This document shows positions 22,543 through 45,930 of a stretch of 58,700 bases of DNA, in pieces (positions within the stretch are counted from its first letter, which is position 1; each line of letters starts with the position of its first letter). The stretch lies in assembly GCA_002086835.1 (NCBI GenBank), contig MVIG01000033.1:1-58700 (forward strand), in the 5' to 3' direction. Position numbers and translations under genes: made by a program. Under the pieces are notes generated by a model. It saw only the letters and a list, made by a program, of their open reading frames with translations. It was not told where the DNA came from and ran no database searches. Source of the stretch: Mycolicibacterium porcinum. GTDB lineage: Bacteria; Actinomycetota; Actinomycetes; Mycobacteriales; Mycobacteriaceae.

Positions 22543-22705
22543 GTCAGCAACAGTAGGAGACGCCGGCGGACATGGCCGACAGCGTGGGTGGGCGGCGCGT
22601 CAAGTCTTGATGTTGCTGTGACCAGACACCGGTCGTGGCACCCCCTTGAATGTGGCACGCTGGTGCCATCCGATCTCCCGCCTCCGGTGCACAGCGAAGG
22701 TGACT

Positions 22706-24199
22706 ATGGCCCCCGGCAAATCCAAGACCGCGAGGTACACCGAAATCGAGCGGAAGTTCGTGGTCACCGAGAACACCGTCTCGCCCTCGTTCGAGGGCCT
22801 GTCGGCCGTCGCCGAGGTGGTCCGCACCGGAACCCAGCACCTCGATGCGGTGTATTTCGACACCCCGGATCGCGATCTGGCCGCGCACCGCATCACGTTG
22901 CGGCGCCGCACCGGCGGTTCCGACGCGGGCTGGCACCTGAAGCTCCCGGCCGGCGTCGACACCCGTACCGAGGTGCGCGCCCCGCTGGGCACGGCGACCG
23001 ACATCGTGCCCGAGGATCTGCGGGACATCGTGCTCGCCATCGTGCGGGACCGCCCGCTGTCCCCGGTCGCCCGGATCAGCACCCAGCGCAGCGTCGAGGT
23101 GTTGCACAGCGACGACGGGACGGGCCTGGCCGAATTCTGCGATGACCGGGTGACGGCGTCGGCCGTCGGCGGCGAGGAACAGCGCTGGCGGGAGTGGGAG
23201 CTGGAGCTGCTCACCGCCGATATGCCCGACGATCTGATGGATCGCCTGGCCAACCGGCTGGCGGATGCCGGTGCGGAACCGGCCGGGCACGGATCGAAGC
23301 TGGCCAAGGTGCTCGGCACCGACACCGCTCCGGCCCCTGCTCCCCCGGCCGATCCGGTGCACCGGGCCATCGCCGAGCAGATCGAGGCGCTGCTGGTGTG
23401 GGACCGCGCGGTGCGCGCCGACGCCTACGACTCGGTCCACCAGATGCGGGTGACCACCCGAAAGATCCGCAGCCTGCTGCAGGAGTCGAAGGATGCCTTC
23501 GGGCTCGACGACGACGGCTGGGTCCTCGACGAGCTGCGTGCGCTGGCCGCGGTGCTGGGCGTGGCCCGTGATGCCGAGGTTCTGGCCGAGCGCTATCAGC
23601 ACGCGCTCGACGAGATGCCCGCCGAGTTGATCCGCGGACCGGTACGCCAACGCCTGGTCGAGGGTGCCAACCGCCGCTATGCCGCAGGTTGGCGGCGTTC
23701 GCTGCTGGCGATGCGCTCACAGCGCTACTTCCGGCTGCTGGACGCGCTCGAAGAATTGGTCAACGCCGAGCAGCCGGAATCCGCGGACGCCTCAGAGTCT
23801 TCGGTGAGCATCGACGCCGCGTACAAGCGGGTTCGCAAAGCGGCCAAGACAGCTGCCGCGGCCGACAGCGATGCCGAGGCCAGCGCCGAGGAGAAGGACG
23901 AGGCGCTGCATCGAATCCGCAAGGGCGCCAAGCGGCTTCGCTACACCGCGGCGGCGACGGGCGCCGACAAGGTGTCCGACCGGGCCAAGACCATCCAGAC
24001 CCTGCTCGGCGACCATCAGGACAGCGTGGTGAGCAAGGCTCATCTGAGCACCCAGGCCGACGCCGCGCATGCCGCGGGCGAGGACACGTTCACCTACGGG
24101 CTGCTGTATCAACAAGAGGACGACCTGGCGCAGCACAGCCGAGCCCTGCTGCAGGATGCGCTCAAGAAGCTGGACAAGGCGGTGCGCAAGGCCCATTAG
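22706..24199 (+). CDS. CYTH and CHAD domain protein (Rv2226 type)
   Basis: The 497-residue protein joins an N-terminal CYTH domain (EIERK at 13-17, the triphosphate/metal motif) to a C-terminal CHAD helical domain. The CHAD part has conserved basic helices, QMRVTTRKIRSLL (about 251) and LHRIRKGAKRLRY (about 413). CYTH enzymes hydrolyse triphosphates and CHAD domains bind polyphosphate, so a role in polyphosphate metabolism is likely. I start at ATG 22706, after GAAGG. Its stop lies six bases before the left att repeat of the mobile element, so it is intact. Confidence 0.9.
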   Translation: MAPGKSKTARYTEIERKFVVTENTVSPSFEGLSAVAEVVRTGTQHLDAVYFDTPDRDLAAHRITLRRRTGGSDAGWHLKLPAGVDTRTEVRAPLGTATDIVPEDLRDIVLAIVRDRPLSPVARISTQRSVEVLHSDDGTGLAEFCDDRVTASAVGGEEQRWREWELELLTADMPDDLMDRLANRLADAGAEPAGHGSKLAKVLGTDTAPAPAPPADPVHRAIAEQIEALLVWDRAVRADAYDSVHQMRVTTRKIRSLLQESKDAFGLDDDGWVLDELRALAAVLGVARDAEVLAERYQHALDEMPAELIRGPVRQRLVEGANRRYAAGWRRSLLAMRSQRYFRLLDALEELVNAEQPESADASESSVSIDAAYKRVRKAAKTAAAADSDAEASAEEKDEALHRIRKGAKRLRYTAAATGADKVSDRAKTIQTLLGDHQDSVVSKAHLSTQADAAHAAGEDTFTYGLLYQQEDDLAQHSRALLQDALKKLDKAVRKAH

Positions 24200-24205
24200 G
24201 GGCTG

Positions 24206-24233
24206 GGGCGAACGAGTTGGCCTGTAAGCCGGA
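24206..24233. repeat. attL: 28-bp copy of the rnpB 3' end
   Basis: The sequence GGGCGAACG...AAGCCGGA is identical to 30714-30741 for 28 bases and then diverges on both sides. Here it is a fragment, since no further RNase P RNA sequence follows. It marks the left junction of the element, six bases after the CYTH-CHAD stop. Confidence 0.9.
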
Positions 24234-24583
24234 AATTGACTTTTTACGTTTCCGCAGTTCAACGCGGTTTGGTGCTATTAGTGGCATATGGTGGACAGCG
24301 GCGTATACATGCAGGTAAGTGACAGTTTTTCGGTCTGAATCAAGCGGCCACCAGTGGGCGCAGAGTGCTGCTGTGCGTAGCGTCTGCGTAGCGCAGTACG
24401 CGGTAGTGAACACGCGCGGTTTCCGTTCGCGCTCACGGCGCCCCCAACCTCTGCAACCGCGTACGACCGTGGAAGAGGTGGACCCTGGTGCGGCTGGACG
24501 TTTCTACAAATATCGGCATATGCCGCTTCACCCAATATCGAGGCTTTGCATAGTAACTTCACGTTAGAAGCGCTAGGAGGCCA
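24234..24583. other. Non-coding left arm of the element
   Basis: This 350-base stretch has no credible gene. It holds the tandem arm-type repeats and, at 24519-24530, the perfect 12-bp palindrome CGGCATATGCCG, which could be an operator for the cargo gene that starts at 24584. I see no tRNA or obvious small RNA in it. Confidence 0.5.
24372..24393. repeat. Left tandem 11-bp repeats, putative integrase arm sites
   Basis: Two adjacent 11-mers, TGTGCGTAGCG (24372-24382) and TCTGCGTAGCG (24383-24393), lie 138 bases inside attL. The same tandem pair in the same orientation occurs inside attR. This is the arrangement of arm-type binding sites of tyrosine integrases such as L5 or lambda Int. Confidence 0.7.
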
Positions 24584-25783
24584 ATGACCATCGCTACCAA
24601 ACAAGCAGCCGATACCGTACGGATACTGCGCATGGGAACCTTTTTCTGGGAGGTGCCTAAGGCGACTCCCATCACCGACGGCCCTCGGCTGACAAGAGAA
24701 CTCGCCACGCAACTGCGGTCAGACCCACGTGTTGAAGAAGTGCTCGATCCCAAGTCCGACGACATCTCTGACTTCATGTTCGCCCGGTTCTACCCATCCG
24801 ATCCACCTGATATGGATTCAATTTTATTCGGAAAAGACTCCAAGAAAGCACTAGTTAGTTCGTTTCCGATATTCTTTCGCGTGCGCGTGCCAATTAAGAA
24901 CCAGCCCATTCACGAAGGTGTCGCAGACGTGCCGAGCGACACCTACGCCGTAGCATGGAATGGAGTCACATTGGTCGCCATTTGGCATCAAGGTAGCGAC
25001 CACATCCCCATGAGTGGCGGCCACGTCGTGATAGATGTACTCAGCGAGGCCATATCAAGCCTAGAAGGGGCTTCGTTAGTTAACCAAGCATGCAGTGCGA
25101 ATTGCAGCTTTCAATTTATGCATCCTTCGATGGTTCTAATGGACTTACCAGATAGCGCCGAAGATAGGGATTTCTACATTCAGCTATCATCTCGTGAGGG
25201 CAGGATTCACCACTTCGATTTGTGGACCTACGCTGGAGACGGTAACGACTTTGAAGTGCTGTCGAGCCTGGCCTTCACACTAATGTCCAAAGCAAACGAC
25301 TTCGCTACCGTCAAAACACTAGGGCGTCGGATCATAGCGATAGAAGGGACAGCTAGAGAGGAGTTAACTCACATAATCGCGCACCAATTTGAAAGTTCAC
25401 AAGCCGCGCTTCTGCCAGCCAAAAAGCGCCTAGCGGCGAAATGGACGAACCGAGCAACAAAGAGGCACATTCAACATTCACTAGTTTCGTTGTCGCTTTG
25501 CCTCGCAAATTTGGAAACACTAAAGCGAGCGTGGGAAGAAGAGAAGCGAAGGTTTGACGAAAAGGATTCCACCGATGGCCAGCTGGCATTTTTCACGACA
25601 GACTCAAAATCGGATGAAGCACGCATTCGTTCACTAAATCTGAACCATCTTGAATTGGCTGTGCAACAGATAAATGACAGTTTGAACAATGCCGCCATGG
25701 TTACCGCTACGGTACGTGGCGCACTCGCGGGCGGCGTGGCTGGCGGCGTATTGGGCGCGCTCGCTGCTGCTCTTGGGAGCTAA
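24584..25783 (+). CDS. Cargo protein A: unknown, C-terminal glycine-zipper segment
   Basis: I do not recognise this 399-residue protein. The first ~235 residues look globular alpha/beta. Residues ~235-370 are mostly helical and charged (for example LETLKRAWEEEKRRFDEKD). The last 25 residues form one hydrophobic Gly/Ala segment, GALAGGVAGGVLGALAAALG, with GxxxG spacing, suited to membrane insertion or helix packing. A clear AGGAGG precedes the ATG, with only three bases between. The DNA is far more AT-rich than the host: 25021-25140 has 55 G/C of 120. The layout recalls membrane-acting defence effectors, or distantly CorA-like proteins, but no motif proves this. Confidence 0.7.
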   Translation: MTIATKQAADTVRILRMGTFFWEVPKATPITDGPRLTRELATQLRSDPRVEEVLDPKSDDISDFMFARFYPSDPPDMDSILFGKDSKKALVSSFPIFFRVRVPIKNQPIHEGVADVPSDTYAVAWNGVTLVAIWHQGSDHIPMSGGHVVIDVLSEAISSLEGASLVNQACSANCSFQFMHPSMVLMDLPDSAEDRDFYIQLSSREGRIHHFDLWTYAGDGNDFEVLSSLAFTLMSKANDFATVKTLGRRIIAIEGTAREELTHIIAHQFESSQAALLPAKKRLAAKWTNRATKRHIQHSLVSLSLCLANLETLKRAWEEEKRRFDEKDSTDGQLAFFTTDSKSDEARIRSLNLNHLELAVQQINDSLNNAAMVTATVRGALAGGVAGGVLGALAAALGS

Positions 25784-25821
25784 AGCGAAGTGAAGCGCGC
25801 GATGACGCGCACACCGAGCGG

Positions 25822-26481
25822 TCAGAATGTTCCCAACGCCTGACTTCCCAAATGCACCAACTCCGCGGCTCCGTCGTGCGCGAGTGTGGTCATCCCTATT
25901 CCCAGAGCGGACAGGACCAGCTTTTTGAGCTTGCCGCTTTCTGGCGCATTGGCAGCGGCTTCGGCCTTGATGTCGGCAGCAACCTGGTGGGCACGTTCGA
26001 CATCGCCCGCGTCCCCTTCCGAAGCACTCGCGAGTAGGTCGGCCACAGCAAGGCATTTCTCAATCTGCTCAGAGACGTTGTACGTCTGGGTCGCGCCAGG
26101 ACTGCCGATGGCAACATTTGTGCTGTTCCTGATATGGATCGTCGTAACCCCCTGAGGGTCGGCGGGCGTCTCACCGCCGGGCCGTACAGATAGCTTTTGG
26201 TCGGCCATCCGTTCACCCCTGGGAGTGATTGATGGGCGTATGACGCCATGCCCCCAGGCACTAGACCCGCTGATGTATCCCTCGCCCTTCAACCAGTCCG
26301 ATGCCGCCGCAACTTCGGGCTCGGTCAAGGGAGCCCCCCGCCAGTCCACAGTCGCCGCGATGTCGTCTGGCTTGAGCACCGGGTGCCGGTTGCCTTGAAC
26401 CATCGCCTTTATGTAGAGCCATGCCAAGATTGCGTCGCGGATGCTCCACACACGATCAATCGCGACAATGGGGTCGGTCAT
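25822..26481 (-). CDS. Cargo protein B: winged helix, RHIM-like motif, helical tail
   Basis: The 219-residue protein has three parts. A winged-helix-like N-terminal region (about 10-92: IRDAILAWLYI, then EPEVAAASDWLKGEGYISG) is followed by a short linker with NVAIGSPGATQTYN (about 122-135). A helical C-terminal domain then ends in a weakly hydrophobic LHLGSQALGTF-like tail. The linker resembles the V/I-x-I/V-G-x-x-N/Q core of RHIM-type amyloid motifs found in bacterial signalling and defence proteins; this is a resemblance only. ATG 26481 follows GGGAGGGG and is better than the upstream frame opening at 26523. It converges on protein A with a 38-base gap. Confidence 0.65.
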   Translation of the reverse strand: MTDPIVAIDRVWSIRDAILAWLYIKAMVQGNRHPVLKPDDIAATVDWRGAPLTEPEVAAASDWLKGEGYISGSSAWGHGVIRPSITPRGERMADQKLSVRPGGETPADPQGVTTIHIRNSTNVAIGSPGATQTYNVSEQIEKCLAVADLLASASEGDAGDVERAHQVAADIKAEAAANAPESGKLKKLVLSALGIGMTTLAHDGAAELVHLGSQALGTF

Positions 26482-26683
26482 CTTGCACCCCTCCCGGAGA
26501 CGAACTGTACAGACACATACCAACGCCTGATTGTTATAGCGGAAGCGCCTTGGTCCAATCTGGCGCGCCGGACAACCGATAAGAACTCAACATGTCGACG
26601 CTGTTGCAGAACCAAAGAGCTGAGACGGCACCCCGGCTGATAAGAACGGCAACAACAACTCCCAGGTCACTACATCTCAGAAG

Positions 26684-26711
26684 TTGACTCAAAATAACCG
26701 TCGCATATTGA
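26684..26711 (+). promoter_or_regulatory. Predicted promoter of the serine recombinase gene
   Basis: TTGACT (26684-26689), a 16-base spacer and TATTGA (26706-26711) form a SigA-like promoter. It lies 31 bases before the ATG at 26743 in the 261-base divergent region between cargo protein B and the recombinase. Elsewhere in this region, CTGAGACGGCACCCCGGC (26620-26637) and GAGACGCCGGGTGC (26728-26741) form an imperfect inverted pair that could be recombinase sites. Confidence 0.5.
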
Positions 26712-26742
26712 CACGTTGTGAGACTTTTGAGACGCCGGGTGC

Positions 26743-27345
26743 ATGGCCGCAACACCTGCCCCCACCGCCACTGAAACCGTCCTGGGCTATGCCCGAGTGA
26801 GCACAGGGCATCAGTCCTTGGATCAGCAGGTCGATGCACTCACTGCTGCCGGGGTAGATGAGTCACGGGTCTACAGCGACAAGCTGTCGGGAACCTCCAC
26901 CCGCGAGCAGCGTCCCGGCCTGGCAGCTCTGCTCGACTACGCCCGCGAGGGTGACGTGATCGTGGTGGTCGGCATCGACCGCCTTGGCCGTAACGCCGCA
27001 GAGGTGATGACAACCATCAGGGAACTGGGTCAGCGTGGGATCGTCCTGCGTTCCCTGCGAGAGGGTATCGACACCTCGAACGCAGCGGGTCGTATGATCG
27101 CTGGCGTGCTGGCAAGCCTGGCCGAGCTGGAATTGGAACTCGGACGGGAGCGCCGTACGGCAGCCCGTGAGGCACGCAAAGCACGTGGGCAAGCCATCGG
27201 ACGTCCCAAAGCTCTGGACGCTCAGAAGGCTTCACTGGCCCAGCGAATGCACGCAGCAGGGGAACCCGCCACCACCATTGCCTCAACCCTGGGCGTCAGC
27301 CGGGCCACCGTCTACCGGGTGCTCGCCCAAGACAACGAGTCCTGA
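26743..27345 (+). CDS. Serine recombinase (resolvase/invertase family)
   Basis: The 200-residue small serine recombinase has the catalytic Ser20 in YARVSTGHQSLDQQ and the arginine signature GIDRLGRN (about 77-84). The long E helix is followed by a C-terminal HTH (TTIASTLGVSRATVYRVL, about 177-194). Enzymes of this size act as resolvases or invertases, not as the large serine integrases. On an element that already has a tyrosine integrase it may resolve multimers, invert a segment or be acquired cargo. It converges on the ATPase gene with a 77-base gap. Confidence 0.9.
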   Translation: MAATPAPTATETVLGYARVSTGHQSLDQQVDALTAAGVDESRVYSDKLSGTSTREQRPGLAALLDYAREGDVIVVVGIDRLGRNAAEVMTTIRELGQRGIVLRSLREGIDTSNAAGRMIAGVLASLAELELELGRERRTAAREARKARGQAIGRPKALDAQKASLAQRMHAAGEPATTIASTLGVSRATVYRVLAQDNES

Positions 27346-27422
27346 GCGCGACCCCCTGGGGCCCCATCGGCACCCCCGCAGTGGCCTCGTACTGCCAGCG
27401 ACTTCTCTCTCTCCGCTGAATT

Positions 27423-28949
27423 TCAGCCCGCGAGATCCCAGACTTCGCCCTTGTAGCCCAGCGCGTTAGCCGCAACGTACAAGCTGTTGAGGTTGTAGCC
27501 AGCCGCCTGGCCGGCTTCACGCACAGCAGCGCCTCGCACCTTCTCATGACCCTTGACACGCAGGTCTGACAGATGACCGTCAAGCCAGTTGCGGCACGAC
27601 AACTTGCGCCCGGCCCGTTTCTCCGACCTGTGCTCTTCCAAACTCACCACGCTGGCCGACCGCTCACCCTGAACGGCCCGTTCATCCTCGCCGACCTGCA
27701 CAGATCCGCCCTGAACGGCCTGTTCACCCTGAACGCCCTCGACCAGTTGATACCGCTTGCCGCCAGCAACAGGAATGACCACGATCACCCCCTCGACAAC
27801 CAACTCGGCAAGAGCTTCATTCAGCAGCTTCCGACGATGCGACTTGCCTAGCGCTGTACTCAGATCGCTGGCCGATGCCTGCCCGCACCGCTTGAAGAGC
27901 GTATTAACGACACTGGTCTTCACCGATTCGGTCTGCGCACGGCGATGGTTCTCGCGGCCCTCCCAACGAAGCACATCGTTCTTACGCCGCTCACGGATCG
28001 CAGCAGCCTGAATCTCGGTTTCCTCGACCTGCAACGAGGCACGGGTGCGGTCTGACACCTCCATGATCTCCCCGGCACGGTGCCACTCCCACGACGTGAC
28101 CTTGATCTCCCCATGCATGATCGCCATCAGCGCGGCCACCTTGCAGCGAGTCAGCAACGCACGGCCATCGAGGGCGTCTACCTCGCCGCGATTGCGCGCG
28201 GTGTTAGCAGCCTTGATCGCAGCCGCGATCTCGGGAACCGCATAGACGATCTCGACCACTCCGTCAGCACCTGGGGTCCATGCCGGCATGTCGGCGTCCA
28301 ACGGTTCAGGATCGTCGAACTCGCCATCGGTGATGTTCGGATCAGTCACCGACACCCACAGGAACCGCTGCGGAGTACCGCCAGACGTGTCGCTGAACAG
28401 CACCCCAGTGTGGCCCGGCTGCGCGCCCACCGACATGCACGCCCGATAGGAATGAGCCGGAACGTTACGGCTAGCGCCCTTGGTCGCATTGGCCTGCCCG
28501 AGCTGCTCACCCATCGCCATGCTCTTGATCGTCGGCAGCAGGATGCTGCCCTGAACCTTCGTCAATCCCGTCGATGTGTCGATCTCGGGCACATCGAAGA
28601 TGACCGGCACAACCTCAACTGGGTCGGACCTCTTAGTAAACGCTTCCGCGATCCCCTGCCCCGAACCCAGTGGCAAGACCAGAACATCCACGGGCCATGC
28701 CAAAGCAGCCACCTTTGCGCTGGCTCCCTTACCGGTGCCCGACCGACCTACAAACGCGCACAACAGATTCAAACTGGCTCGGCCACCAATCACACCCGGC
28801 AGCTGCACAAGATGCGGAACGCTCGCCGAAACCCTCAGCAACACCCCAAACAGCACCGCCCAGGGCGACACATGGCGAGCCTGAGCCCACTCATATATCT
28901 TCCGCAGCTGATCGCTACCTGACTCCAAGAAGAACTGTTCACTAGTCAA
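27423..28949 (-). CDS. P-loop ATPase of DUF3987-like replication type
   Basis: The 508-residue protein has a Walker-A-like GRSGTGKGAS (about 68-77) in which Gly replaces the usual Ser/Thr after Lys. VVPVIFDVPEID (about 113-124) serves as Walker B, and GGTPQRFLWV (about 194) follows. A winged-helix segment (LSTALGKSHRRKLLNEALAEL, about 375) precedes a repetitive linker (VQGE/AVQG units, about 405-435) and a basic C-terminal domain. DUF3987-type proteins accompany primases in mobile elements, so replication or maintenance is likely. The start is TTG 28949 with AGGA upstream. It is the last gene of the int-xis-ATPase strand. Confidence 0.65.
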   Translation of the reverse strand: MTSEQFFLESGSDQLRKIYEWAQARHVSPWAVLFGVLLRVSASVPHLVQLPGVIGGRASLNLLCAFVGRSGTGKGASAKVAALAWPVDVLVLPLGSGQGIAEAFTKRSDPVEVVPVIFDVPEIDTSTGLTKVQGSILLPTIKSMAMGEQLGQANATKGASRNVPAHSYRACMSVGAQPGHTGVLFSDTSGGTPQRFLWVSVTDPNITDGEFDDPEPLDADMPAWTPGADGVVEIVYAVPEIAAAIKAANTARNRGEVDALDGRALLTRCKVAALMAIMHGEIKVTSWEWHRAGEIMEVSDRTRASLQVEETEIQAAAIRERRKNDVLRWEGRENHRRAQTESVKTSVVNTLFKRCGQASASDLSTALGKSHRRKLLNEALAELVVEGVIVVIPVAGGKRYQLVEGVQGEQAVQGGSVQVGEDERAVQGERSASVVSLEEHRSEKRAGRKLSCRNWLDGHLSDLRVKGHEKVRGAAVREAGQAAGYNLNSLYVAANALGYKGEVWDLAG

Positions 28950-28970
28950 TTGATTGTCCTAAATTGATTG

Positions 28971-28991
28971 CACTGCAACAGAAGTGCAGTG
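28971..28991. promoter_or_regulatory. Small inverted repeat between xis-like and ATPase genes
   Basis: CACTGCA (28971-28977) and TGCAGTG (28985-28991) form a perfect 7-bp inverted repeat with a seven-base centre, in the 64-base gap upstream of the ATPase gene. It could be an operator or an RNA hairpin. Confidence 0.35.
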
Positions 28992-29013
28992 GATCTGCTC
29001 ATAAGAGAAGCCG

Positions 29014-29199
29014 CTACGCGGCGTCGAACATGGCTTCAAAGTGCGCCACGATCTCATGCCGCTTCCATACGCGACGACGCCCCTGCTTAGCGGACTTAGG
29101 GAGCTGCCCCAACCGCTCCCAGTACCGCACCGTGTCGATGCTCCGACCGCAGTAATCCGCGAAACCGGCAGCGTCGATGAATAGAGCATTTTCGGACAC
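29014..29199 (-). CDS. Excisionase-like MerR-type HTH protein
   Basis: The 61-residue protein is essentially one winged HTH: FADYCGRSIDTVRYWERLG, then QGRRRVWKRHEIVAHFEAMF. This is the AlpA/excisionase fold used as a recombination directionality factor or regulator by actinobacterial elements. I choose GTG 29199 because GAGG lies six bases upstream; the reading frame opens at 29364, but that extension is low-complexity. It lies directly downstream of the integrase gene on the same strand, as expected for a xis gene. Confidence 0.7.
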   Translation of the reverse strand: MSENALFIDAAGFADYCGRSIDTVRYWERLGQLPKSAKQGRRRVWKRHEIVAHFEAMFDAA

Positions 29200-29406
29200 G
29201 TCCAACCTCAGAATCTCAGCAGCACGAATAGACCCCTGCCGTTCAGGCTTGCGCGGTTGCGCACTGGACGCCGTGGGGTTCGTGTCAGGTTGGTGCGCTG
29301 TCGTTGCTACGTGCTGTGGGCGTCCACCAGGTGGCGACAGTACACGAACACCTGTTCGATGCAACGCGGCGCGCCGAGCGTGTCGCGACCGACCGTCTAG
29401 CGGCCC

Positions 29407-30552
29407 TTACCTCAGCACCGAATCAATCGCATCCCGTGTCCGGTCGTCCGAATCCGGCCACAGGTGCGAATAGGTGTCCAGTGTCTCCGCAGCAGACGCA
29501 TGTCCCAACCGTGCCTGCACCGTCTTTACGGATTCCCCGTACCGGATAAGCAAGCTGGCGTAGTAGTGCCTCAGCGAGTGCAGGCCGCTACGTGGCCCGA
29601 GCTTTGCAGCCTTCGCCGCCGCGTTCCAGTGGTAACCGAACGACGACTTGGGAACGGCCTTGCCGTTCCAGGTGAACGCCAGCCCCTCGGGACTGGGCGG
29701 AAACTGTTTCATGTGTTCTTTGAGCGCCTCGACCACCACATCAGGCAACGGAATCGTCCGATAGCTCGCCTGCGTTTTCGGCGGTCCGAACGTGACGGGA
29801 TTTGCCCGGATGAGTTGCTGGTCAACCTTCACCGTGCCAGTACGGTCACCGGAGTTCTCGGGTAGATGTAGCCGGTCTACGACCAAGCCGAAGCACTCCC
29901 CTTTTCTCATCCCGGTACCGGCGGCGAAAGTTGCCAGCGCTTGCAGCTCGTCGGGTAGCTTGCTCCGCACAGTCTCGAACTGCTGGGTCGTCGGCGGCAC
30001 AACCTTCGTGGGCACCTTTGTCGGCAGCTTGGTTCCTTCGCACGGATTAGACGCAATGCACTTGTCGCGCACCGTATCTTTGAAGATGCCGAACACAACT
30101 CCGTGCACTACCCCCACCGTCGACGGTGCCAGCTCAATCCCGGCTACCCATGCCTGTATCTCGCTCGGGAGGACGGCAGATATTGGGCGGTCACCAAGCA
30201 CCGGATAGGCGTGGAGCCGCAACCGGCTCTCCACGTGCTCCGCAGAGCTGTCCCGATGCACCTGTCGCTTGCGCCATGCCTCCGCATAGTCGCGGAAAGT
30301 GACCTGGCCCTTAGCGGGGTCAACGTACGCGCCGGTATGCAAGTCGGAACTAAGTTCCTTCACGCGCCTGTCTGCGTCGGCGCGCTTCTCGTATGACTCG
30401 GTGAGTTCCTTGCCGTCCGGACCGACCCATCGGACGCGCCACCGCCTGCCGGTGCCGTGCAGCTTGTTGCACACCTGCGTGCCGGTCTGCCTGAAGTGCG
30501 TCTTATCCATGCACCACACCGGGCCGTCTGCATTGTCGGCGGGGTAGAACAC
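29407..30552 (-). CDS. int: Tyrosine-type site-specific integrase
   Basis: The 381-residue protein has an arm-type DNA-binding N-terminal region (RRWRVRWVGPDGKELTESYE), a core-binding SAM-like domain (about 85-165) and a complete catalytic domain. Conserved residues are Arg216 (GTGMRKGE), Lys259 (PPKTQASYRT), His325-x-x-Arg328 (HSLRHYYAS), His351 (LGHAS) and Tyr361 (DTYSHLW). The frame is open to 30705, but GTG 30552 has a good ribosome site (GGAAGGG) and leaves the tandem arm-like repeats outside the gene; GTG 30633 is another option. It sits beside attR and reads in the same direction as rnpB. Confidence 0.93.
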   Translation of the reverse strand: MFYPADNADGPVWCMDKTHFRQTGTQVCNKLHGTGRRWRVRWVGPDGKELTESYEKRADADRRVKELSSDLHTGAYVDPAKGQVTFRDYAEAWRKRQVHRDSSAEHVESRLRLHAYPVLGDRPISAVLPSEIQAWVAGIELAPSTVGVVHGVVFGIFKDTVRDKCIASNPCEGTKLPTKVPTKVVPPTTQQFETVRSKLPDELQALATFAAGTGMRKGECFGLVVDRLHLPENSGDRTGTVKVDQQLIRANPVTFGPPKTQASYRTIPLPDVVVEALKEHMKQFPPSPEGLAFTWNGKAVPKSSFGYHWNAAAKAAKLGPRSGLHSLRHYYASLLIRYGESVKTVQARLGHASAAETLDTYSHLWPDSDDRTRDAIDSVLR

Positions 30553-30651
30553 CTGCTCACCCTTCCGGGGTGCTCGGTGCCACTGATCCTCTACGCCTGC
30601 CCGTACGGAGCGCTTGATACCCGGAGAGTTCACAACGGGATCGCATGCTGA

Positions 30652-30673
30652 TCTGCGTAGCCTCTGCGTAGCG
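30652..30673. repeat. Right tandem 11-bp repeats, putative integrase arm sites
   Basis: TCTGCGTAGCC (30652-30662) and TCTGCGTAGCG (30663-30673) lie 40 bases inside attR, in the same orientation as the pair at 24372-24393. Two such pairs flanking the element are best explained as arm-type sites of its integrase. Confidence 0.7.
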
Positions 30674-30715
30674 ACATGGCCAAACAGCCGGATAGCGCCT
30701 GGCAAGAGGCGGTGG

Positions 30716-31107
<392 letters not shown>

Positions 31108-32013: not shown

Positions 32014-32319
32014 GCCGCGGTCGCGCAACTGCCGATCGAATAGGCAACAACTGTCAGCGCCGTTCTTACAGTTCTGTGGCTCACGGTATTTCGCACCAAA
32101 GCAATGGCGGTGACGAGGCCACCGCGCGACCAAATCATCAACCCAGCCTCACCAGACCGAATGCCGATCAGAGAAGTAAAGGTTGCGGGCGGTGGCTTGA
32201 TGTTTTCGATGTAAGAGCGACCATGCCCAGATGGCACCTTGGGGTGGCGACCCAATGGTTCAGAAACCCCCGAACGCTCGGAAGGGGTTTCTGAACCATT
32301 GGGTCAGGAGCGGTCCCGC
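32014..32319. other. Intergenic region with one hairpin only
   Basis: Apart from the long hairpin at 32250-32304 I see no gene or RNA here. A minus-strand frame of 81 codons (32010-32255) lacks a ribosome site and a recognisable family. Confidence 0.4.
32250..32304. terminator. Perfect 21-bp hairpin between convergent genes
   Basis: Arms 32250-32270 and 32284-32304 are exact complements over 21 bases (ACCCAATGGTTC...), with a 13-base loop. It lies between the VOC gene and the convergent glycine-rich protein gene, so it could stop transcription from both sides. There is no T-run. Confidence 0.7.
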
Positions 32320-33063
32320 TTAGCGGCCGATGCCGCCGCCGAAACCTGTGCCAAATCCAGCGCCGCCAACCGGGGTGGTGAGTTCACCGCCAGTGCCGGT
32401 GGACAGGCCGCCCCCGTCAGGGCCGAGGTTGGTCGATCCGCCCGTATTTAGCCCCCCGCTGCCGATCGGGGTCGTGACACCGCCACCGACGTTGGCATCC
32501 CCCGACGTGTCGGTTGACGGGAAGAACGGATTCGGCAGACCGATGTTCGAGCCACCCTCGACACCGCCACCACCGATCGGCGTGTTCACCCCGCCACCAC
32601 CGTTGACATCCCCGGACGCGCCGGTTGGCGGGAAGAACGGATTCGGCAGACCGATGTTCGAGCCACCCTCGACACCGCCACCACCGATCGGCGTGTTCAC
32701 CCCGCCACCACCGTTGACATCCCCGGACGCGCCGGTTGGCGGGAAGAACGGATTCGGCAGACCGATGTTCGAGCCACCCTCGACACCGCCACCACCGATC
32801 GGCGTGTTCACCCCGCCACCACCGTTGACATCCCCGGACGCGCCGGTCGGCGGGAAGAAAGGATTCGGCAGACCGATGTTCGAGCCACCCTCGACACCGC
32901 CACCACCGATCGGAGTAGTGACATTGCCGCCGGTGCCGCCTGACACATCATCGTCCGCCGCCGCCGCACCCGCTACCACCAGCGGAATTAGACCGCCGGC
33001 GAGAATCGCTGCCGCCCCAGTACCAAGCCCAACAATGACGCGGTGATGTCGGATCTTGCTCAT
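32320..33063 (-). CDS. Secreted glycine-rich protein with 37-residue repeats
   Basis: The 247-residue protein starts with a Sec signal peptide (basic MSKIRHHR, hydrophobic core, cleavage near AGAAAA/DDD, about residue 36). It then has four copies of a 37-residue unit containing TPIGGGGVEGGSNIGLPNPF and a fifth, decayed copy. The C-terminal ~45 residues are Gly/Thr-rich. There are no Cys residues and no catalytic motif, so it is probably an extracellular or cell-wall structural protein. ATG 33063 is preceded by GGAGAGG. The repeats are nearly identical at DNA level. I know no named family. Confidence 0.8.
   Translation of the reverse strand: MSKIRHHRVIVGLGTGAAAILAGGLIPLVVAGAAAADDDVSGGTGGNVTTPIGGGGVEGGSNIGLPNPFFPPTGASGDVNGGGGVNTPIGGGGVEGGSNIGLPNPFFPPTGASGDVNGGGGVNTPIGGGGVEGGSNIGLPNPFFPPTGASGDVNGGGGVNTPIGGGGVEGGSNIGLPNPFFPSTDTSGDANVGGGVTTPIGSGGLNTGGSTNLGPDGGGLSTGTGGELTTPVGGAGFGTGFGGGIGR
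32479..32922. repeat. Four 111-bp tandem repeats (coding)
   Basis: The marker CGTTGACATC recurs at 32601, 32712 and 32823, exactly 111 bases apart. The three central units are almost identical and the outermost more diverged. The repeat is in frame (37 codons), so changes in copy number would keep the protein readable. Confidence 0.85.
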
Positions 33064-33469
33064 GTAGATACCTCTCCAGTTCGTGAATCGATCACATGTG
33101 GCTGTTGGGACTCCGCCATCGTGCGCGCCCACCCCCGACGACCCGAATATCGAGCGCGATGCCCAACTCGTTACACCGCTGCATTGATACGACGTTGCTG
33201 GATCGTTGCCCACGCCCTTTCGCACACTCGACAACCGCTCTGCCGTACGCAGCCACCATCGCGACATGAGCCGTGCTGCGATTCCACCGCACCGACGCCG
33301 TACGTATCCAGAAAACACAGGTTGAGCAGGTCGATGGTCAGATTCGACTGTCCGGGCGGAAACCCGGGCCCGGGATCAAAACCCATGTCGCACAAGCACT
33401 TGGCCGTCACATCGCGCGCCGCGGCGGCGACGCCCGGGCCGCACAGAAAGGGCCTGGGCGCCCCACCAC
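33064..33469. other. Intergenic region without recognisable gene
   Basis: This 406-base stretch holds the upstream region of the glycine-rich protein gene. Short open frames on both strands have no ribosome site and no family signature, and I see no stable hairpin or tRNA. It may contain a decayed gene. Confidence 0.4.
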
Positions 33470-36972: not shown

Positions 36973-38076
36973 CTACAGGTAGGCGGTCTGGTTCACCAAC
37001 CGCACCGAGGATCCGCCGTCGGCGTAGAACTCGGCGATCGACAGCGAGGCCAGATCCAGATGCAGCCGGTACAGGATGCCCTCGCCGGCATCCAGCGCCA
37101 GTCGCAGAATCGTCTTGATCGGCGTCACGTGGGAGACCACCAGAACCGTTGCCGGGCCGTACTCGGAGATGATCCGATTGCGCGCCCGGCGGACCCGGTG
37201 GGCGACCGCGTCGAAGCTCTCACCGCCGGGCGGCTCGACGCTCGTATCCCGCAGCCAGCGCCGGTGCAGCTCCGGATCCCGTTGCGCCGCTTCGGCGAAT
37301 GTCAGCCCTTCCCACTCACCGAAGTCCGTCTCGATCAGATCGTCGTCGACGCGGACATCGACGCCGAGGGCCTTGGCCGCGGCCGTCGCCGTCTCATACG
37401 CCCGCCCCAGCGGTGAGGTGACCACCGCCGCGATCCCGCCTCGTGCGCCCAGGTAGCGTGCCGCGGCGTCGGCCTGCCTGCGGCCCTCCTCGGTCAGCTC
37501 CGGGTTGCCGCGACCCGAATAGCGCCGGTTGACCGACAGTTCGGTCTGGCCGTGCCGCAACAGCAACAACCGGGTGGGTGACCCGGTGGCACCGGTCCAC
37601 CCGGGTGCCGACAGCGTGGGCTTCTCGGCGACGACGGGTTCCGGGGCGGATGCCGGCGCGTCACCGAGGATCCCGGCAGCGGCATCCATGGCCTCGTTGG
37701 CCAGCCGGTCGGCATGGCTGTTGCGTTCCCGCGGGATCCACGAGTAGCTAACCCGTTCGAAGCCGGCGGCCAGCTCGGCGGCCTGGCGTTGCAGTGGAAT
37801 CAGATCGGGATGCTTGACCTTCCAACGTCCCGACATCTGTTCCACGACGAGTTTGGAATCCATCGACACGGCGACCTCGGTGGCGCCCAGCTCGGTGGCC
37901 GCCGCCAAACCCGCTATCAGGCCGCGATATTCGGCGACGTTGTTGGTGGCCCGGCCGATCGCCTCCTTGCGCTCGGCGAGCACCGCGTCATGGTCGGCAT
38001 CGAGCACGACAGCGCCGTAGCCCGCCGGTCCGGGATTGCCCCGGGAACCACCGTCCGCTTCGACGAGAACCTTCAC
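36973..38076 (-). CDS. Bifunctional RNase HI / acid phosphatase (Rv2228c type)
   Basis: The 367-residue protein fuses an RNase HI domain to a histidine-phosphatase domain. The RNase part has EADGGSRGNPGPAGYGAVV with the catalytic Asp, then NNVAEYRGLIAGL and SMDSKLVVEQMSGRWKVK. The phosphatase part has LLLLRHGQTELSVNRRYSG, about residue 182, and VVSHVTPI. It matches Rv2228c, in which the C-terminal part has CobC-like phosphatase activity. GTG 38076 overlaps the stop of the zinc-ribbon gene by four bases (GTGA). Confidence 0.94.
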   Translation of the reverse strand: MKVLVEADGGSRGNPGPAGYGAVVLDADHDAVLAERKEAIGRATNNVAEYRGLIAGLAAATELGATEVAVSMDSKLVVEQMSGRWKVKHPDLIPLQRQAAELAAGFERVSYSWIPRERNSHADRLANEAMDAAAGILGDAPASAPEPVVAEKPTLSAPGWTGATGSPTRLLLLRHGQTELSVNRRYSGRGNPELTEEGRRQADAAARYLGARGGIAAVVTSPLGRAYETATAAAKALGVDVRVDDDLIETDFGEWEGLTFAEAAQRDPELHRRWLRDTSVEPPGGESFDAVAHRVRRARNRIISEYGPATVLVVSHVTPIKTILRLALDAGEGILYRLHLDLASLSIAEFYADGGSSVRLVNQTAYL

Positions 38077-38801
38077 TGCTTGATCCGTAGGAGGATGGCC
38101 CCGCATTCGGGGCAGCGCAGCACGTCGTCTTCTGCGGCCGCGGCGATCCGGGCGCTCTCACCGCGATCGATCTCGATCCGGCAGGCACCGCAGCGCCGGC
38201 CCTGGAGCAAGCCGGCCCCCGCGCCGCCCCGGGCGCGCAGACGCTCGTAGAGGGCAACCAGTTCAGGGTCGATGAGGCCGACCAGGCCTTCGCGGCGGGT
38301 CGCCGCCTGATGCTTGGCCTGATCGATCTCCACCAGTGCGGCATCGCGGGCCTGCTGCGCCGCGGACAGGGCGGTCTGCAGATCGTCGATGCGTTGCAGG
38401 GCCTCGGCCTGCTGGCCTGCCAGTTCCTCGCGCCGCTCCATGAGCTCCAGCAGGGAGTCCTCTAGGCTGGATTGCCTGCGCTGCAACGTTTCCAGTTCGT
38501 GCTGGATCTCGGCGACCTGCTTGGCACCCACCGTGCCGCCGTCGATCAGCGCACGGTCCCGGTCCTCACGCTGACGTACCGAGTCGATCTCGCTCTCGAG
38601 CTTGCTGACCTGGGCTTCCAGGTCCTCCAACGCGATACCCAGAACGCCGACCCCGTCGCTGGCCGCAGCGTGCTCGGCCTGCGCCTCGTCCACCTTCTTC
38701 TGTTCGGCCAGGTTCTTCGCGCGGTGCGCCAGCCGCCCGAGTTCGGCATCGACCTCGGTCAGCGCGAGAAGCGAACGTTGTTGTTTTACTTCGGCTTTCA
38801 T
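38073..38801 (-). CDS. Coiled-coil zinc-ribbon protein (Rv2229c type)
   Basis: The 242-residue protein has a long coiled coil (about residues 10-165) and then a C-terminal zinc ribbon with two CxxC pairs, CGAC and CPEC. This is the C4-type zinc ribbon family of unknown function, always near Nif3 and RNase H genes in actinobacteria. ATG 38801 starts MKAEVKQQRSLLAL. Its stop overlaps the downstream RNase HI/phosphatase gene, and the Nif3 gene lies 28 bases upstream, so all belong to one minus-strand operon. Confidence 0.9.
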   Translation of the reverse strand: MKAEVKQQRSLLALTEVDAELGRLAHRAKNLAEQKKVDEAQAEHAAASDGVGVLGIALEDLEAQVSKLESEIDSVRQREDRDRALIDGGTVGAKQVAEIQHELETLQRRQSSLEDSLLELMERREELAGQQAEALQRIDDLQTALSAAQQARDAALVEIDQAKHQAATRREGLVGLIDPELVALYERLRARGGAGAGLLQGRRCGACRIEIDRGESARIAAAAEDDVLRCPECGAILLRIKQ

Positions 38802-45855: not shown

Positions 45856-45930
45856 TGGTGGGCGCGGACGGTATCGAACCGCCGACCGCTGGTGTGTAAA
45901 ACCAGAGCTCTACCACTGAGCTACGCGCCC
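45856..45930 (-). tRNA. tRNA-Val (anticodon TAC)
   Basis: Read on the minus strand it folds as a complete cloverleaf: acceptor GGGCGCG/CGCGCCC, D stem GCTC/GAGC, anticodon stem CTGGT/ACCAG enclosing loop TTTACAC (anticodon TAC), and T arm with TTCGATA. Discriminator A is followed by an encoded CCA (45856-45858). No insertion is seen at this tRNA. Confidence 0.95.

Follow-up and report, generated by a model that had tools for sequence, protein, structure and literature searches.

The locus examined here raises the question of whether a segment of about 6.5 kb, lying between a CYTH/CHAD gene and rnpB, the gene of the RNase P RNA, in Mycolicibacterium porcinum, is a mobile element that uses rnpB as its attachment site and, if so, by what means it travels. 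The window, that is the whole stretch of 58,700 nucleotides that was analysed, is one complete contig (MVIG01000033.1) of a draft assembly in 102 contigs (GCA_002086835.1). It is near certain that the element is integrated at rnpB, and we propose, with a probability of roughly 0.55, that it is a mobile rnpB island acting as a minimal phage satellite, similar to the phage-inducible chromosomal minimalist islands (PICMIs). Integration is supported by the identity of the cores, by relatives in which the site is empty, by the paired arms and the open integrase gene, and by the recurrence of this integrase lineage at rnpB. The exact 28-bp direct repeat reported at both junctions in the preliminary description is present at both (Table 1), and the 6.96-Mb genome holds no further copy at up to 3 mismatches; the chance expectation from base composition is ~5e-7 such pairs per window. 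The right copy is, as had been proposed, the 3' end of a complete rnpB, the RF00010 match covering positions 1-367 of the 367 of the model. Placed on the RNase P model, the core takes in the 3' strand of the terminal helix together with a conserved stretch that precedes it, a region that we take to be one of the most highly conserved of the RNA. The GC content is 0.594 between the repeats vs 0.676 and 0.684 in the 10-kb flanks, and the single tRNA gene of the window (45856-45930) is distant from both junctions. An origin of the repeats by chance, by misassembly of this draft or by ordinary duplication of the rnpB end is hardly credible, and was ruled out by the low expectation, the GC contrast, the empty sites and the many different islands that recur at the same place.

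The empty rnpB junction expected in genomes without the element was seen in 22 of 30 loci (L003-L032), where the CHAD gene is followed by a single core copy and then by rnpB. The remaining eight comprise a split rnpB without CHAD match (L003, L023), a locus without CHAD match (L032), integrase or resolvase remnants adjoining rnpB (L005, L006), genomes with two copies (L007, L016) and an island interrupted by the contig end (L024). When the window flanks were joined over one core and compared with the empty site of genome G020, 751 of 839 columns aligned, with just one 10-nt and one 1-nt gap from the CHAD stop to the core and other small gaps inside the CHAD gene. Islands bounded by the same repeat beside rnpB, also anticipated, are recurrent: in a survey of 297 genomes of the genus with a 25-bp core at up to 2 mismatches, the core was present in 259 and in two copies in 25, of which 19 hold the pair on the same contig and strand and six on different contigs or strands. 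Alignment covered 18 of the 19 pairs, window included (that of G281, ~40 kb and in two stretches, was left out). Core-to-core spacing ranges from 1.1 to 17.2 kb, and the 17 pairs besides the window have a CHAD match left of the left copy (up to ~1.5 kb) and rnpB after the right copy.

The integrase is near-full in 6 of these 18 islands, split or diverged in 2, reduced to fragments in 6 and without detectable trace in 4; more than half of them are apparently decayed. The occurrence of both repeat copies without an integrase had been put forward as an argument against insertion. Such cases do occur, with 4 of 18 islands lacking the integrase and 6 keeping fragments only, but inserted DNA lies between the copies. 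Since this is so, and since L084 retains the left arm motif, the integrase-less islands are read as decayed. That the window element, too, is what decay has left of a once larger satellite or prophage, fixed in place and retained on account of its cargo, is improbable: although 10 of 18 rnpB islands keep no more than integrase fragments, the window has the integrase, both cores and both arm pairs, and the genes for integrase, Xis-like protein, helicase and resolvase are all open and correspond to those of a sister island.

The arms of the attachment site provide a further line of evidence. Type A, that of the window, consists of TGCGTAGC N3 TGCGTAGC at +160/+171 from the left core and -68/-57 from the right core, distances being measured from the start of a 20-bp core. 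Both arms are found in the window and in L063, and one arm, at a distance within 1-2 bp, on the left in L065, L071 and L084 and on the right in L064 (with one mismatch), L079, L088 and L006. Across the loci compared, which total 2.31 Mb with overlapping stretches included, the double motif is restricted to these islands and to overlapping stretches of the same places; one copy in L071 lies ~1.5 kb from its core, apparently displaced by an insertion. The right type A pair stands directly upstream of the likely integrase start. A second type, B, is formed by ACTGCGGACG, in pairs 11 bp apart where two were found, at ~104/115 and -70/-59; it was not found in L080, L082, L083 and L085. In type B islands the integrase gene is directed towards rnpB, and in type A islands away from it. 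That fixed distances are kept among islands with unrelated cargo is the best sign that the motifs are integrase arm sites, in an attachment anatomy resembling that of lambda and L5.

The association with rnpB appears to be a property of the integrase lineage. Named genomes were scanned with the integrase alignment, rnpB being disregarded, and the best 80 of 194 relatives were kept; rnpB was found at 47 of these best 80, within 600 bp of the integrase gene in 36 and within 5 kb in all 47. It was located by blastn, with which cmscan agreed in 7/7 positives and 7/7 negatives tried; some loci are truncated at contig ends, so that rnpB may be missed among the negatives. An earlier search by two motifs, which found the pair in 12/80 loci only, was superseded because the second motif varies outside mycobacteria. 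The rnpB-linked hosts belong to many actinobacterial families and include Nocardioides, Microbacterium, Blastococcus, Promicromonospora, Terrabacter and Pseudonocardia; one integrase record is titled unverified Bacillus. A second copy of the rnpB 3' end, of 25-31 nt, was detected in at least 11 of the 47 loci, a lower bound given that the flank was limited to 10 kb. On a quick tree of 79 integrases (L147 and L131 left out), the rnpB label requires 5 changes vs a mean of 25 when shuffled, and 0 of 500 shuffles were as low. No rnpB was found in the loci of a clade of integrases from Streptomyces and its kin (L143, L148-L160; ~40-41% identity). It is probable that rnpB is a general integration hotspot of Actinomycetota with an old, dedicated integrase lineage whose passengers include defence islands and both head-forming and minimal 6-kb satellites; by targeting one of the best conserved parts of an essential ribozyme, the lineage would reach a very broad spectrum of hosts, if the gene is rebuilt each time.

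What the window element carries bears on the manner of its transfer. Its six open reading frames (ORFs) encode a tyrosine integrase, a helix-turn-helix (HTH)/Xis-like protein, a P-loop helicase, a serine resolvase and two proteins without assigned function, termed cargo A and cargo B. The integrase gene is open, scores 54.6 bits for PF00589 at a cut-off of 27.1, and contains TGMRKGE, LHSLRHYY and LGHASAAETLDTY, presumably the catalytic motifs of tyrosine integrases; comparison with relatives indicates GTG at 30633 as the most likely start. The helicase appears to be like the helicase half of phage primase/polymerases, although against solved structures it gave weak matches only (E 0.24 or worse). 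The CGTTCAGGG copies within its gene may tentatively be considered origin iterons, unproven because codon-shuffled controls reached equal or higher counts: 12 shuffled helicase genes gave 3-5 copies vs 4 observed, and the helicase gene of Mycolicibacter heraklionensis holds 5 vs 3-4 in shuffles. Cargo A had no notable match in Pfam, PHROG, NCBIfam or PADLOC, no relative in the viral contigs or plasmids searched and no profile match among solved structures; its position alone makes us suspect an anti-phage gene.

Table 1. Features of the rnpB island and its borders, in window coordinates.
Feature	Coordinates	Strand	Evidence or remark
Host CYTH/CHAD gene, left flank, long ORF, start provisional	22646..24199	+	CHAD 149 bits, CYTH 52.6 bits
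Left attachment core, copy of rnpB 3' end	24206..24233	+	Identical to 30714-30741; single in empty sites
Putative left arm-type site, two TGCGTAGC 11 bp apart	24374..24392	+	Equal left-core distance in L063, L065, L071, L084
Cargo A, 399 aa, GC 0.515	24584..25783	+	A single relative in 297 other genomes of the order
Cargo B, resolvase partner, 233 aa, likelier start ATG at 26481	25822..26523	-	65% over 213 aa to M. pallens plasmid resolvase fusion
Serine resolvase/invertase, 200 aa	26743..27345	+	PF00239 130 bits, HTH_7 45 bits; 78% in M. heraklionensis
Replication helicase, 508 aa	27423..28949	-	phrog_28894 1e-44; phrog_11515 1e-44; P-loop GRSGTGKG
Three CGTTCAGGG copies inside helicase gene, tentative origin iterons	27664..27738	-	Codon-shuffled control equal or higher
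Xis-like HTH protein, up to 116 aa, start provisional	29014..29364	-	phrog_66 excisionase 8e-5
Tyrosine integrase, 408 aa from GTG at 30633, ORF extends to 30705	29407..30633	-	PF00589 54.6 bits; phrog_1 3e-57
Putative right arm-type site, two TGCGTAGC 11 bp apart	30654..30672	+	Equal right-core distance (1-2 bp) in L063, L064, L079, L088, L006
Right attachment core, rnpB 3' end	30714..30741	+	Exact repeat and RF00010 match
rnpB, RNase P RNA gene, complete	30717..31102	-	RF00010 296.2 bits

The sister island of M. heraklionensis (L088) lies at rnpB and has the same order of integrase (77%), Xis-like (72%), helicase (47%) and resolvase (78%) genes; an Mrr_cat gene follows the resolvase, and its left end is unseen because the contig ends beyond that gene. 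In Mycolicibacterium rhodesiae (L063, integrase 81%), the island encodes terminase, portal, scaffold-like, major head, head-tail adaptor and HNH proteins; of its 13 ORFs of at least 80 aa, 10 were scanned, and none of these gave a tail-tube, tail-fibre or lysis match. Terminase and portal genes are also present in L069, whose head protein clusters with that of L063 and whose primase/helicase is 33% like the one in the window (DUF3987 26.1 bits vs a cut-off of 27). Phage_capsid proteins occur in L066 and L068 and a tape-measure protein in L067; some other rnpB islands have Dsr1-like, helicase or nuclease cargo. Three contigs of 10.2-10.8 kb in a viral collection carry integrases of 81-84%, and one of them, with the same ORF sizes, looks like the M. 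rhodesiae island itself. The window element is the stripped, capsid-free end of the rnpB-island range. The suggestion in the preliminary description that it is a phage satellite is supported by the head genes of kin; for the window element itself, that status is inferred. The defence-type cargo of some kin and the relation of its helicase to phage primase/polymerases also count in favour of the satellite reading.

The closest comparison is with the PICMIs of Vibrionaceae which, in the available text on them (PMC10803314), likewise measure ~6 kb and comprise an integrase, a small HTH regulator/excisionase, a gene of primase-helicase type, few others and no capsid genes; one known PICMI carries a defence system. 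The published model comprises a PF00589 integrase, an AlpA regulator (PF05930 or PF12728), a primase (DUF3987 or DUF5906) and a position next to fis. The window integrase matches the first of these families, whereas regulator and helicase fall short of the model families, PF12728 reaching 22.6 bits vs a cut-off of 27 and the helicase having PHROG primase/polymerase matches only; moreover the element lies in rnpB and not beside fis, includes a resolvase module and has no known helper. Going by the parts available of the descriptions of capsid-bearing mycobacterial phage-inducible chromosomal islands (PICIs; PMC10654092) and capsid-forming PICIs (PMC11389934), L063 and L069, whose related integrases lie at rnpB, are alike in having head genes along with terminase and portal, and their scanned ORFs gave no match to tail or lysis proteins; the window element differs from the capsid-forming PICIs in that its six ORFs give no head or packaging match, genes which L063 does have. 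The earlier alternative of a new class of small island fits the attachment gene better than the gene set, which resembles that of minimal satellites.

Several results weigh against a satellite. None of the six ORFs was recognised as a gene for packaging, capsid or interference, the Xis-like protein scores under the Pfam cut-offs (MerR 26.4 bits, HTH_17 22.6 bits), the helicase has no Pfam match up to E 0.1, cargo A matches no defence model in PADLOC and the resolvase partner is plasmid-like. In the host genome, searches for Phage_capsid, Phage_portal and TerL_nuclease, the only virion families tried, gave 0 matches, so that it has no resident helper of those families. It is the resolvase partner, cargo B, that links the island most directly to plasmids: a 405-aa protein of a MobF plasmid of M. 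pallens has a second half that shares 65% identity with cargo B over 213 aa and a first half that is a serine resolvase 45% identical to that of the window. Relatives of cargo B occur on mycobacterial and rhodococcal plasmids (21/31 records typed mobilizable), including the MobF plasmid pVT2 (about 60%), and none was found in the viral contigs searched; profile comparison with solved structures gave weak matches only (E 0.24 or worse). In the window, cargo B and the resolvase gene lie side by side in divergent orientation, and we read them as a probable multimer-resolution module common with plasmids; the M. heraklionensis island has the resolvase and, in the sequence up to the contig end, no cargo B. 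The gene set given in the preliminary description stands, except that the 233-aa gene is no free cargo, because on a mycobacterial plasmid the related sequence forms one protein with a serine resolvase. As for a res site between cargo B and the resolvase gene, a plasmid search of the gap returned 7 records with weak short matches only, and the candidate was dropped.

The shared resolvase module is the best evidence for an integrative plasmid, in which a plasmid-like replicon (helicase initiator, resolvase and partner) would have acquired the rnpB integrase and be moved by mobilization or transformation, with no phage involved. In view of this module, the absence of the three virion families from the genome and a cargo A devoid of defence matches, it is a serious rival, though the less likely of the two. 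The six ORFs include no relaxase, FtsK-type or other transfer match (oriT was not searched for), the helicase matches are to phage primase/polymerases, and the closest integrase kin accompany phage head genes. Mobilizable plasmids of the pVT2 type have the cargo B protein in common with the island but encode a MobF relaxase, whereas the island has an integrase and no relaxase match. With cores at both ends that are single in empty sites, the segment is a site-specific integrative element, and the relaxase or FtsK-type transfer protein of integrative and mobilizable elements or actinomycete integrative and conjugative elements is absent among its six ORFs. The earlier statement that it has no virion or transfer genes agrees with what was recognised in these ORFs.

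Under the satellite reading, the tyrosine integrase would recombine a short attP core with the conserved rnpB 3' end, the RNase P RNA gene being rebuilt upon insertion. The Xis-like protein would drive excision, the helicase together with host or helper enzymes could replicate the excised circle, and the resolvase and its partner may resolve multimers. As none of its genes was recognised as coding for virion or transfer functions, we hypothesise that a passing phage packages the DNA, in the manner of a minimal PICMI-like satellite, and that cargo A may protect the host from phages.

Other observations at rnpB illustrate the variety of these loci. Two largely decayed islands, with the integrase mostly or wholly lost, keep a Dsr1/SIR2 gene (L079:1789-5295) and a helicase with a methyltransferase-like gene (L084:3134-6303). 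In a remnant of a window-like island at rnpB in G086 (L195:1284-2797), the right arm pair is accompanied by a resolvase fragment of 88% identity and by scraps of the integrase. In G034 and G037 (L197:8992-10426 and L198:12008-13442), an rnpB copy is split by ~1.1 kb, with integrase scraps alongside; the insert in L197 encodes a DDE_3 (IS630-like) transposase, and G034 has a second core match elsewhere in its genome. Additional rnpB copies have been predicted in mycobacteria (PMC9569102), in a passage that makes no mention of islands. As regards the window flanks, the gene order claimed earlier, Rv2226-rnpB-Rv2228c, holds on the left, where the CYTH/CHAD gene, which we take to be the Rv2226 counterpart, ends just before the island. 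On the right, the RNase H/histidine-phosphatase gene (36973-38106), presumably that of Rv2228c, lies ~6 kb beyond rnpB and is therefore no direct neighbour; AraC-, glyoxalase-, DUF222- and methyltransferase-type genes stand between. A perfect 22-bp inverted repeat with a 13-nt loop and a terminator-like shape lies at 32249-32305, and a tandem 111-bp repeat, reported in four overlapping copies (32453-33007), falls within ORF 32320-33318, whose product is a repetitive, glycine- and proline-rich protein.

Islands in RNA genes and minimal satellites are already known. The present island resembles the former in that its core is the 3' end of an RNA gene restored by insertion; the gene here is rnpB, and a resource on such islands lists, in its available text, only tRNA/tmRNA, protein-coding and intergenic sites. 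Likewise, of four mycobacterial PICI examples drawn in the accessible part of PMC10654092, three use tRNA genes and one a serine integrase site, none rnpB. No report of rnpB as an attachment site was found in the literature searched, some of it available in part and its scope lying outside subscription papers and preprints, within which this attachment gene appears undescribed. Surveys without an rnpB category would count such islands as intergenic. An integration vector could be built from the integrase and attP, the site being present in most mycobacteria and many other actinobacteria, and the effect of island insertion on RNase P RNA levels is directly testable. The RNase P RNA gene joins the tRNA and tmRNA genes as an attachment site, and it is a place to seek new anti-phage genes and mycobacterial satellites.

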